The position numbers and the translations under genes were made by a program. Below, one piece after another: positions 24,261 to 28,114 of a stretch of 64,000 nucleotides of DNA (position 1 is its first letter; each line of letters opens with the position of its first letter). This stretch comes from Sphingobacteriales bacterium (GTDB lineage Bacteria > Bacteroidota > Bacteroidia > Chitinophagales > Chitinophagaceae). Location of the stretch: assembly GCA_004144185.1 (NCBI GenBank), contig SEFP01000003.1, positions 186,001-250,000 of the forward strand. Reading direction: 5' to 3'. Under the pieces are notes generated by a model that saw only the letters and a list, made by a program, of their open reading frames with translations, was not told the origin of the DNA and ran no database searches.

Positions 24261-24953
24261 TTAGCTCTCGGTCTCATGCTTGTCCCATAAATCAGGACGC
24301 CGCGCCTGGGTGCGGGCAATGCTTTGTTCCATCCGCCATGCATCTACTTTTTTCGGATCGCCGCACAACAGCACTTCCGGAACCTCCAGTTCCCGCCAGG
24401 TAGCCGGACGGGTATATACCGGTGGGGCCAGCATATCATCCTGAAACGAATCGGTAAGCGCAGAGGTTTCGTCGTTGAGAACCCCCGGAATCAACCGGCC
24501 TATGGCATCTACCAACACAGCAGCGGCCAGCTCTCCTCCACTCAATACATAATCGCCAATCGAAATTTCGCGGGTCACATATGTCTGCCGGATGCGCTCG
24601 TCGATGCCTTTGTAATGCCCGCAGATCAGCAACAGGTTTTGCGCCAGCGACAGTTGGTTGGCATCGGCCTGCTCAAAGCGTTTCCCATCGGGGGTCAGGA
24701 AGATAATCTCATCGTAGGTACGCGTCTGTTGCAGCGCATCAATCGCATTGGCCAGCGGCTCGGGCATAATGACCATTCCGGCACCGCCACCAAACTGATA
24801 GTCATCAATCTGAGCATGCTTATTGATTGCCCAGTTACGCAGATTATGAGTTTGCACCTCCAGCAGTCCCCGTTGCTGGGCACGCTTCATAATGGAATGA
24901 CTAAACGGGCTGCTGAGCAGATCCGGAACCGCCGAAAGAATATCAATGTGCAT
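24261..24953 (-). CDS. trmD: tRNA (guanine37-N1)-methyltransferase
   Basis: A 230-residue SPOUT methyltransferase. It methylates G37 next to the anticodon with S-adenosylmethionine, which prevents +1 frameshifting. Hallmarks: MHIDILSAVPDLLSSPFSHS at the start, DYQFGGGAGMVIMPEP, LICGHYKGIDERI and EISIGDYVLSGGELAA (the trefoil-knot SAM site). It sits between rimM (62 bases upstream) and rplS, the usual conserved order. Confidence 0.95.
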   Translation of the reverse strand: MHIDILSAVPDLLSSPFSHSIMKRAQQRGLLEVQTHNLRNWAINKHAQIDDYQFGGGAGMVIMPEPLANAIDALQQTRTYDEIIFLTPDGKRFEQADANQLSLAQNLLLICGHYKGIDERIRQTYVTREISIGDYVLSGGELAAAVLVDAIGRLIPGVLNDETSALTDSFQDDMLAPPVYTRPATWRELEVPEVLLCGDPKKVDAWRMEQSIARTQARRPDLWDKHETES

Positions 24954-25015: not shown

Positions 25016-25516
25016 CTATAGGTCTACCAGGCCATCCGGAAGCTGCACACGTAAAAAACGGTTGCGGTCATTCGTGTCTTTAATAAAAGCCTCGATCAGC
25101 GGAAACAGCACTTTTTTCGCGCCGGTATCAATCTGCGCCAGCCATTGCGTTCCCGCTTTGTACACATCATCTATTGTACCCAGCGCACCCAGGGTTACAT
25201 CGACTACTTTATAACCGATAAAACGCAGGGGCGATGTGGTATTGGCCATGGATAGCTTCACATTTTCCACATGTACTAACCGGCCAACCAGTTCCTTGGC
25301 CGCAGTCACATCCGCTACATCGTCAAGCCGGAGGATGACTTCGGTGTCGGATTTGCCCCGGATTCCTTCTACGAAAAAAGGAATGAACGAGCCTTTCTTC
25401 AGTTCCAGATGCAGGGGTTCGCCTACCGTCAGCCACTTCATTTCCGGAAGCTCATGCGTCAGGATCACCTCTCCGGTCAGCCCGTGGGCCGCCGCAATTT
25501 TTCCGATACGGATCAA
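25016..25516 (-). CDS. rimM: Ribosome maturation factor RimM
   Basis: A 166-residue protein with the N-terminal RimM barrel (GKIAAAHGLTGEVIL, VEGIRGKSDTEVILRLDDV) and a C-terminal PRC-type barrel ending FLRVQLPDGLVDL. It binds S19 and assists 30S head maturation. The start is a TTG at 25516; the nearest upstream in-frame stop leaves only GTT and ATT as alternatives. It is first in rimM-trmD-rplS. rpsP, often found just ahead of rimM, is absent; dnaX lies there instead. Confidence 0.92.
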   Translation of the reverse strand: MIRIGKIAAAHGLTGEVILTHELPEMKWLTVGEPLHLELKKGSFIPFFVEGIRGKSDTEVILRLDDVADVTAAKELVGRLVHVENVKLSMANTTSPLRFIGYKVVDVTLGALGTIDDVYKAGTQWLAQIDTGAKKVLFPLIEAFIKDTNDRNRFLRVQLPDGLVDL

Positions 25517-25674: not shown

Positions 25675-27480
25675 TCAGTAGTCAATCTGCAGGCCTAATG
25701 TATTCCGGAGGGTTTGCAGCAGCGGATTTTCCCGGACCAGCTCTTCATACATTTCCTGCTTGGAAAGCTGCTTCGGCGGCTTGGGCAACGAGTCATCCAC
25801 CACCACACGGGTCAAAACCCGGATGACACGACCATACTGCTTCTGGAAAAAATCCAAAAGCCGGTCACGGGTGTTTTTCACATACACCTCAGCCATCTCC
25901 GTCGGGCAACTGATTTCCACCTCGGAGTCGCCTATTTTCTGGATCTGCAACTGCGAAAACTGCGCATAGAGGGTGTGCTCGTTGTTGGCCCGCAACTGCT
26001 CGCCAAATTGTGCAAACACATCATTGAGGGTATCAGGTTCCAACGGAACCACCGGCTTCGCAGCATACTGGTTAGCACCGGTCTCCGTTACTTTGGTAAG
26101 GAGGTCGGCTGAGATCCGCCGCCGGGAGGACGTTGGCCGGTCAGGCGTCGGAGCCGTTATTGGTAATGGGGGCTGCGGTACAGGGACGGCAATGGGTTTT
26201 TCCGGAATGGGCTGCACCACTGGTGGAGGAGCAACGGGCGGCTGAATCGGAGCTTCCGGACGAACAGGTGTCGGAAGAACGGGCGGAGGGATAGCAGCAA
26301 CCGGTGGCACGGCCGCAGGCGTTACGGACGGACTAGAATTTTTTTTTGGCGTCGCAGCTTCTGCCGGCGGTCCGGCGGGTTCCGGATACCAGCTATACGT
26401 GAGCCGGATCAGCGTTACCTCTACATGGATACGCTTGTTAGTAGCAACGCGATACTCCAGGCCGGCCTGATGCAACAGCGTCAGGCCGTTCATCAGAAAC
26501 GAGGGGGTTGCCTGACGGGCTTTTTCGAAAAACTGCAACCGGGTATTGGCTGGCACATCCAGTAGCCGCGCCATGCGCTCATCCCGGCACAGCAACAGAT
26601 TCCGGAAATGTTCGGCCAGTCCGGACAGAACGGCATCGCCTTCAAAGCCCCGCGCCACGGCTTCTTCGAATTGCATCAATGCAGCCGGCATATCTGCGGC
26701 CAGCATGCAATCGGTAATCCGGAAGTAAAAAGCAGCATCCAGCATGGCCAGATGTTCCAGGGTTGCCGCATACGTCAGTTTTCCATCGGTAAAGGCCGAA
26801 ATCCGGTCCAGCATCGACAAGGCATCACGCATGCAGCCTTCACTTTTCTGAGCGATGACATGCAGCGCTTCTTCTTCTGCCGGAATGCCTTCTTTCTGAG
26901 TAATCGTTTCCAGGTGCGCAACGGTATCACTCGTTTTGATGCGCTTGAAATCGAAAATCTGGCACCGACTCAGGATTGTGGGCAGAATCTTGTGTTTCTC
27001 GGTGGTTGCCAGAATAAAAATGGCATACGGCGGCGGCTCTTCCAGTGTTTTCAGAAACGCGTTGAATGCAGCCGTACTCAGCATATGCACCTCATCGATA
27101 ATGTACACTTTAAATCGGCCCTGCTGCGGCGCAAAGCGCACCTGCGCAACCAGCTCACGGATATCATCGACTGAGTTATTGGACGCGGCATCCAGCTCAA
27201 ATACGTTGAAAGAGGCGTTGGCATCAAACGCCCGGCAGTTTTCACACACGCCACAAGCTTCAGTATCGGGTGTGCGGTGTTCGCAGTTGAGCGTCTTGGC
27301 CAGAATCCGGGCGCAAGTAGTTTTACCTACGCCCCGCGGACCGCAGAACAGGTACGCGTGAGCCAGCTGATCGTGCCGGATGGCATTTTTCAGAGTTGTG
27401 GTAATATGCTCCTGCCCGACCACCGTATCAAAGGTCTGTGGCCGGTATTTACGCGCGGAAACCAGAAATTGCTCAGCCAT
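25675..27480 (-). CDS. dnaX: DNA polymerase III subunits gamma and tau
   Basis: About 601 residues from the ATG at 27480. The clamp-loader AAA+ domain has Walker A GPRGVGKT at 47-54, a zinc site of Cys66, Cys76, Cys79 and Cys82, and DEVHMLSTAAFNAFLKTLEE. Domain III ends near residue 365. A Pro/Ala-rich linker and a tau-specific C-terminal domain follow. At 26339-26347 the coding strand has nine consecutive A's (codons P378 K379 K380 N). A -1 slip there reads Lys-Phe-stop (TAG at 26333-26335), giving a 382-residue gamma form. E. coli and Thermus dnaX use comparable slippery tracts. The gene has its own -7 box at 27507-27514. Confidence 0.94.
   Translation of the reverse strand: MAEQFLVSARKYRPQTFDTVVGQEHITTTLKNAIRHDQLAHAYLFCGPRGVGKTTCARILAKTLNCEHRTPDTEACGVCENCRAFDANASFNVFELDAASNNSVDDIRELVAQVRFAPQQGRFKVYIIDEVHMLSTAAFNAFLKTLEEPPPYAIFILATTEKHKILPTILSRCQIFDFKRIKTSDTVAHLETITQKEGIPAEEEALHVIAQKSEGCMRDALSMLDRISAFTDGKLTYAATLEHLAMLDAAFYFRITDCMLAADMPAALMQFEEAVARGFEGDAVLSGLAEHFRNLLLCRDERMARLLDVPANTRLQFFEKARQATPSFLMNGLTLLHQAGLEYRVATNKRIHVEVTLIRLTYSWYPEPAGPPAEAATPKKNSSPSVTPAAVPPVAAIPPPVLPTPVRPEAPIQPPVAPPPVVQPIPEKPIAVPVPQPPLPITAPTPDRPTSSRRRISADLLTKVTETGANQYAAKPVVPLEPDTLNDVFAQFGEQLRANNEHTLYAQFSQLQIQKIGDSEVEISCPTEMAEVYVKNTRDRLLDFFQKQYGRVIRVLTRVVVDDSLPKPPKQLSKQEMYEELVRENPLLQTLRNTLGLQIDY
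26333..26347 (-). promoter_or_regulatory. Probable programmed slippage site in dnaX (A9 tract plus -1 stop)
   Basis: The coding (minus) strand carries nine A's at 26347-26339, then TTC and, in the -1 frame, TAG at 26335-26333. The tract falls at the junction between clamp-loader domain III and the Pro-rich tau linker, exactly where a gamma product should end. The mechanism could be ribosomal -1 frameshifting on A-AAA-AAA or RNA polymerase slippage adding one A. Confidence 0.7.
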
Positions 27481-27574: not shown

Positions 27575-28114
27575 CTATCCTGGTTGACTGGCAAAGTATT
27601 TCCAAAGTGGTGCAGCGTGGAGCGCCTGAATGATGTTTCCGGAACGCAACAGTTCTTTAACCTCTTCCGGACGGCACAGATGGACGGTCATTTCCTCACC
27701 GGTATCATAGTGAGGTTCTGTTGTTTTGGTCACACCTACGGCCAGAAAGGTGTGCGACCAGTTGGTAACAATCGCCGGGTTGGGACTCAGCGAATCCCAG
27801 TGTTGCCAAACGCCACCGCTGTAACCGGTTTCTTCCAGCAACTCCCGTTGCGCCGCTGCCAGGTACGAAGCTTCACCGGCTTCGGCGTACCCCGCGCAGA
27901 GTTCATAGTCGGTACGTTGCAGCCCGTGGCGGTATTGCCGCACCAGCACAAAATCGCCTTCAGTGGTAATGGCAATCGTATTGACGAAATCGCCGGATTC
28001 GAAAATGTAATAATCTTCCAGCTCGGTGCCTTTCTCCAGTTGCACGTGATCGCGGCGAACGGTCAGAAACGGTTTTTGGTGCAGGTATTCGCTGTGCAGC
28101 ACTTTCCAGGACAT
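27575..28114 (-). CDS. NUDIX hydrolase (ADP-ribose pyrophosphatase-like)
   Basis: A 179-residue protein. The complete Nudix box lies in GYAEAGEASYLAAAQRELLE followed by ETG (pattern Gx5Ex7REVxEExG, about residues 74-97), which binds the metal and hydrolyses a nucleoside diphosphate linked to another group. The N-terminal beta strands (LTVRRDHVQLEKGTELEDYY) resemble the ADP-sugar pyrophosphatase subgroup. It is a single gene between dnaX and the aldo/keto reductase, with a hairpin at 28150-28186 upstream that isolates it from the reductase transcript. Confidence 0.85.
   Translation of the reverse strand: MSWKVLHSEYLHQKPFLTVRRDHVQLEKGTELEDYYIFESGDFVNTIAITTEGDFVLVRQYRHGLQRTDYELCAGYAEAGEASYLAAAQRELLEETGYSGGVWQHWDSLSPNPAIVTNWSHTFLAVGVTKTTEPHYDTGEEMTVHLCRPEEVKELLRSGNIIQALHAAPLWKYFASQPG

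Follow-up and report, generated by a model that had tools for sequence, protein, structure and literature searches.

In the dnaX gene of Escherichia coli, a -1 frameshift takes place on the heptamer A_AAA_AAG, with an SD-like sequence and a stem-loop acting as stimulators, an arrangement represented in Rfam as RF00382. In Thermus thermophilus, the dnaX event is instead transcriptional slippage on a run of nine A's (Larsen et al. 2000, as described in PMC5009743, PMC1088944 and PMC3711429), and the 2013 GeneTack survey reports a two-ORF dnaX layout for 17 genes of 12 genera, nine of them with a run of ten A's (PMC3711429). According to a 2012 review, most bacteria beyond the enterobacteria and Thermus have no dnaX frameshift signature and may make no gamma (PMC3290774), while the role of gamma in E. 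coli is described as having long been controversial (PMC5009743).

Here we analyse dnaX from a member of the Chitinophagaceae (Bacteroidota), carried on a stretch of DNA of 64,000 nucleotides that is referred to throughout as the window. The features of the gene and its surroundings are:

25675-27480, minus strand: dnaX, DNA polymerase III subunit gamma/tau, a tau frame of 601 residues with its ATG start at 27480 (NCBIfam NF011531, TIGR02397).
26383-27480, minus strand: residues 1-366, encoding clamp-loader domains I-III (AAA+ domains followed by domain III), which gamma and tau have in common (Pfam DNA_pol3_gamma3 ends at residue 366).
26339-26347, minus strand: A9 slippery tract, from the third position of codon 378 to the second position of codon 381 (from the sequence).
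26333-26335, minus strand: TAG in the -1 frame, closing a predicted gamma of 382 residues from a 10-A transcript or a -1 ribosomal shift (simulated transcripts).
26322-26324, minus strand: TAA in the +1 frame, closing the 8-A (385 residues) and 11-A (386 residues) products (simulated transcripts).
25675-26338, minus strand: C-terminal part present in tau only, a Pro-rich linker and C-terminal domains (NF011531 match over residues 3-600).
25016-25516: neighbouring rimM (63.1 bits, slightly under the cut-off of 66.2).
24261-24953: neighbouring trmD.
27575-28114: neighbouring NUDIX-like gene (weak match to NudE).

The product is matched by NF011531 over residues 3-600 (E=1.3e-199; 665 bits, under the 685-bit cut-off of that profile) and by TIGR02397 (436.5 bits, cut-off 250). 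At the junction the coding strand reads CCA AAA AAA AAT TCT AGT in codons from 378, and AAA TTC TAG in the -1 frame, with the TAG 3 nt and the +1-frame TAA 14 nt past the run. A preliminary description of this DNA had proposed a nine-A tract in dnaX, a full-length tau of about 601 residues and a short product of 382, and all three are borne out. Its early -1 stop is also present, with one codon (TTC) rather than two between tract and TAG, and its short product does end past domain III, although 16 residues beyond residue 366 and not exactly at the domain boundary; the +1-frame TAA had not been mentioned. Simulated transcripts with 7, 8, 9, 10, 11 and 12 A's encode products of 381, 385, 601, 382, 386 and 602 residues, respectively, and a -1 ribosomal shift gives a product of 382 residues (...TPKKKF) identical to that of the 10-A transcript. 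The predicted short form has a mass of about 42 kDa, and the 8-A and 11-A products would have the C-termini KKILVRP and KKKILVRP. The slipped products of 381-386 residues all terminate shortly past clamp-loader domain III.

The window gene resembles that of T. thermophilus in its nine A's on the coding strand, its one-ORF tau, its nearby stops in both other frames and its two kinds of Lys tRNA. It differs in the position of the tract, which lies about 63% of the way along the ORF and directly past domain III, compared with 'seven-eighths' in the text of PMC1088944 for Thermus; in having relatives with two-ORF forms; and in the standing of the slippage itself, which is experimentally proven for Thermus and predicted here. 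Because the two positions differ, we lean towards an independent origin for the window tract. With the GeneTack two-ORF genes it shares a poly-A gamma/tau junction and a -1 transition, a layout found in 42 of 302 distinct relatives, but the tau of the window is a single 601-residue frame. As in E. coli, gamma would end past domain III at a -1-frame stop; unlike E. coli dnaX, the window gene has a longer pure-A run, a +1 stop as well and no RF00382, and its family shows no excess of stimulators. Since reversals of layout had been foreseen for an event of roughly 50% efficiency (PMC5009743), and two-ORF A10 dnaX genes were reported in 2013, we regard the window gene as a further case of a known kind. 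A-run dnaX as a trait of the Bacteroidota was not found in the literature searched; the A10 species of the GeneTack survey may include Bacteroidota.

By itself, a run of nine A's in this DNA is unremarkable. A single A9 is seen on the two strands of the window, against 2.08 expected from dinucleotide shuffles, and A9 can be placed 22 times in the genome as a whole, in 21 runs, some of them in other long ORFs. Two further sense-strand A9 runs in this genome, in ORFs of 351 and 473 residues (L182 and L187), are possible slippage sites. As the tract is not above chance, its conservation among relatives was examined. From 98 genomes of the family, dnaX was recovered in 93, the other five having no match at E<=1e-100, and omission of two loci that stop at a contig edge (L171, L232) left 91 readable genes. 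A run of at least nine A's lies within codons 361-420 in 84 of the 91; it is A9 or A10 inside one ORF in 82 and A10 or A12 between two ORFs in two (L134, L169), with seven genes lacking A>=9. Taken with no threshold, the longest A-run in these codons measures 9 in 54 genes, 10 in 29 and 12 in one, with 4-8 in the remaining seven, and runs of 7 or 8 are found in just three of the 91. Within the genus of the window species, three of four genomes have A9 or A10 and the fourth, L007, has no A>=9. Among relatives that can be cultured, Terrimonas ferruginea (L040), also of this family, carries the A9 in its dnaX.

The other samples were scored for an A-run anywhere in codons 336-470, which is looser than the junction. 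On this basis A>=9 is present in 67 of 80 named loci, which were chosen by similarity and include a few species that are also in the family sample; in 32 of 33 newly fetched members of the class, two of which are also in the family sample; and in 17 of 30 genes read from outside the class, being absent from the remaining 13. The last two sets derive from a phylum sample in which 146 of 148 genomes have dnaX and 67 of the 146 were read, comprising every one of the 37 class members and, from beyond the class, 30 of 109, which represent 18 of 24 families. For the Bacteroidota group sampled, these counts argue against the view of the 2012 review that most bacteria lack the signature. Looked for in relatives, as the preliminary description had advised, tract and -1 stop both prove to be conserved (84 of 91 and 81 of 82, respectively), and its reading of this gene as a case of gamma/tau recoding in Bacteroidota gains support from the family-wide occurrence of the two.

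What is remarkable about the window tract is its conservation in all codon phases, together with the double stops. Each of the 82 single-ORF family genes has a run of 9 or 10 A's, placed in phase 0 in 40 genes, phase 1 in 4 and phase 2 in 38; because the run is read in three codon phases, the encoded peptide changes while the run stays. The first -1 stop is found within 9 nt in 81 of the 82, compared with 21% for random positions within the same linkers and 40% when the 20 codons after the run are redrawn synonymously. For a first +1 stop within 16 nt the count is 63 (77%), against 30% and 53%, a modest excess over the synonymous null, and the two stops occur together in 62 genes, against 6% and 19%. 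For single-ORF tract genes of the other sets, the counts with a -1 stop no more than 9 nt away are 45 of 52, 17 of 17 and 7 of 8. Phase-independence and the stops carry more weight than retention of the run: when the run itself is redrawn synonymously, 42% of draws still contain A>=9, so that part of its retention follows from the Lys codons.

The layout of the gene is itself changeable. On a FastTree phylogeny of 302 distinct DnaX N-terminal parts (310 rows less eight duplicates of identical proteins), the 210 genes with A>=9 switch at least 19 times between the one-ORF and the two-ORF form, the run being counted anywhere in codons 336-480, again looser than the junction, and some branches being weakly supported. 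Of the two-ORF genes, 42 have tau in the -1 frame and three (L103, L134, L221) have it in the +1 frame. One clade, f5/g103, is two-ORF in all six of its members, with a support of 100; because whole clades are filled in this way, the two-ORF genes as a group are not sequencing errors, and single metagenome-assembled cases may be.

How would gamma be made from the single frame of the window gene? We consider it quite probable, from the pattern of runs and stops, that slippage of RNA polymerase on the A9 tract yields both tau and a gamma-like DnaX in this species. The polymerase would slip on the nine A's, at some rate, to give dnaX mRNAs with 8, 9, 10, 11 or more A's; those with 9 or 9+3n would encode tau, of 601 residues or one Lys more, and those with other counts would meet a stop within a few codons, either the TAG of the -1 frame or the TAA of the +1 frame. 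The stopped products would be gamma-like clamp-loader subunits of 381-386 residues, retaining domains I-III without the tau tail, and we infer that such subunits are both produced and used.

Weighed between slippage and FRAMESHIFTING, the evidence appears to favour slippage of RNA polymerase, the Thermus mode, over the E. coli mode, given runs of 9-10 in every phase, stops in both frames, no excess of SD-like sequences or hairpins, and the presence of both Lys tRNAs. An A_AAA_AAA heptamer needs only seven A's in phase 2 or eight in phase 1, and a -1 shift by the ribosome would work without a +1 stop, so that runs held at 9-10 regardless of phase and the enrichment of +1 stops both point to slippage. 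The genome of the window has two copies of tRNA-Lys UUU and one of CUU among its 42 tRNA genes; Thermus also has two Lys tRNAs, a point described as possibly relevant to its polymerase slippage (PMC5009743). Experiments in vitro with E. coli ribosomes are reported to give robust sliding on A11 and little truncation on runs of A9 or A10, with some truncated product already from three consecutive AAA lysines (PMC4363877).

The foremost alternative, which we judge unlikely, is that the mRNA is homogeneous and gamma is made by programmed -1 ribosomal frameshifting on A_AAA_AAA, much as in E. coli. Every run of A>=9, that of the window included, contains an in-frame A_AAA_AAA, so that ribosomal -1 slippage could occur there, and the -1 stop is the best kept of the stops. 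The 42:3 bias to tau in the -1 frame among two-ORF relatives agrees equally with a ribosomal shift and with slippage biased to insertions. Among the seven family genes with shorter runs, L035, L139 and L172 each have an A_AAA_AAG in frame, followed 5-8 nt later by a -1 TGA, and frameshifting of the E. coli mode may have taken over in these; in 49,789 codons of 92 genes, counted outside codons 361-416, there are two A_AAA_AAR sites with a -1 stop no more than 15 nt away. The window gene has no in-frame A_AAA_AAG, its A_AAA_AAA being followed by A, A and T. Nor is there an excess of the stimulators that accompany the E. coli site. SD-like cores precede the tract in 23 of 82 family genes, against 30% in the synonymous null; an apparent enrichment over random gene positions (28% vs 13%) was dropped when it disappeared against that null, and none of the cores GGAG, GAGG and AAGG is present in the 40 nt upstream of the window tract. 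Structure in the 60 nt that follow the tract shows no excess (mean z -0.10, with z < -1.5 in 9 of 82 family genes), and the hairpin predicted downstream in the window (-12.4 kcal/mol) starts after 18 unpaired nt. RF00382 has no match in the genome of the window, in a search that recovers E. coli as the sole match of 14 controls, and an Rfam search of the window dnaX region returned only a sub-threshold match to an unrelated snoRNA.

A second alternative is that the run simply encodes a cluster of lysines in a disordered linker, maintained by selection on the protein or by drift, and that no useful amounts of gamma result. The A9 runs elsewhere in the genome, including those in other long ORFs, and the 42% of synonymous redraws that retain A>=9 agree with such a view. 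It does not, however, account for a run whose three reading phases give different peptides, for the enrichment of stops in both other frames, or for two-ORF relatives that need a change of frame to make tau at all, and we regard it as very improbable. Less credible still is a DNA-level contingency locus at which replication slippage would switch cells between tau and gamma, for although run length differs among species and gene layout flips, the single-ORF family runs are all 9 or 10, unlike hypervariable tracts, two-ORF forms occupy whole clades, and tau is expected to be essential.

We return to polymerase slippage as the preferred reading for the window gene and consider what takes its place elsewhere. 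On balance we are inclined to think that two DnaX proteins are a widespread rule in the Bacteroidota, kept under selection while the recoding device changes between a one-ORF or two-ORF A-run, A_AAA_AAG and in-frame UAG readthrough. Some relatives appear to have swapped the A-run for another device at the same spot. In three loci of one family in which there is no A-run (L060 and L061, Bacteroidales; L088, Bacteroidetes), an in-frame TAG lies directly past domain III and the tau tail continues in that frame without a stop for 201, 254 and 189 codons, respectively; in L061 this tail corresponds to the tau end of the NF011531 profile (positions 374-607, E=4.3e-17). The motif TAGATTGCNAGG gives 65 matches in 57 of 190 genomes of this Bacteroidales family, against 31 for a reversed control, and 16 of the 29 loci fetched with it are dnaX. 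A protein search finds dnaX in 179 of the same 190 genomes. Loci were read from both searches, 70 from the protein search (the 30 nearest and 40 chosen by the length of their open frames, 20 long and 20 short) and seven from the motif. The 30 nearest, picked by protein similarity alone, all have the in-frame TAG, followed by 196-259 open codons, whereas the 40 chosen loci comprise eight UAG genes, ten one-ORF and six two-ORF genes with A>=9, ten one-ORF genes without it, four others and two that are unclassifiable (L379, L380). Five of the ten one-ORF genes with A>=9 (L343, L345, L347, L348, L349) have an A10 at codons 449-463, some 70-80 codons downstream of the usual place, which would lengthen gamma.

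Since the UAG class is defined by a TAG followed by 120 or more open codons, the presence of TAG in 45 of 45 elements is circular. The codons that follow are a separate matter: in 39 distinct elements not picked by the motif these are ATT (29) or ATA (10), GCA (37) or GCT (2), and AGA (22) or AGG (17), with neither ATC nor a CGN arginine codon at these positions. A short stem can be drawn in all 45, with a mean score of 11.6 compared with 6.1 for synonymous shuffles (maximum 7.9 of 200). These are per-sequence stems, with ten distinct stem pairs, that of L088 probably being spurious, and RNAalifold finds no consensus structure on a MAFFT alignment of the 45 elements, so that the claim of a hairpin is weaker than true covariation would make it. 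The full arrangement of UAG, AUW GCW AGR and a short stem is seen at L061:3596-3640 and also in L060, L088, L311-L340, L361-L366, L368 and L371, with 189-259 open codons. An Rfam search of the L061 region gave one sub-threshold, unrelated match. Across 395 genomes of the class the motif has 15 matches, similar to the 12 of a reversed-pattern control, and none of the 15 loci is dnaX; the UAG motif is thus not seen in dnaX in the class sample.

Programmed UAG readthrough to give tau, with termination giving gamma, is apparently the most economical reading of these genes; no description of UAG readthrough in dnaX was found in the literature searched. UAG looks like an ordinary stop in the genomes concerned. 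Thirteen non-dnaX ORFs ending in TAG were followed in seven stretches from six genomes, and ten meet the next in-frame stop within 34 codons, making genome-wide recoding of UAG unlikely; the other three stay open for 99, 133 and 343 codons. The longest of these follows an ORF of 298 residues (L384:17108-18004, minus strand) in a UAG-type genome, and is possibly a recoded gene or an artefact. Reinitiation at the AUU after the UAG, which would produce the tau tail separately, is a live rival to readthrough. Bypassing like that of T4 gene 60 was set aside, as inspection by eye showed no consistent matching landing codon. Simple readthrough leaves unexplained three relatives of the UAG-type genes whose tau is in the +1 frame, the junction being AGG CYT AGC TAG (CTT in L367 and L369, CCT in L370), which looks like a site for a +1 shift ahead of a stop.

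A dnaX recoding signature is thus the norm in one family and frequent far outside it, an argument for a selected function of gamma. The A-run device known from Thermus is here kept widely across a bacterial phylum, and the UAG-type genes, if confirmed, would add both a mode of recoding and a natural signal for UAG readthrough. The interesting part of the finding is the apparent retention of one output through changing recoding devices.

Finally, two further arrangements were seen in dnaX genes that have no A-run. A Bacteroidales gene (L079:3500-3700) has a gamma ORF of 383 residues with tau in the +1 frame, and has neither an A-run of 7 or more nor the UAG element. Three Bacteroides-like genes (L052, L064, L097) have in common GGGGCGTAGC, which leads to a -1-frame TAG right past its G-run; this could be another slippery site, or could reflect only a conserved GRS peptide.
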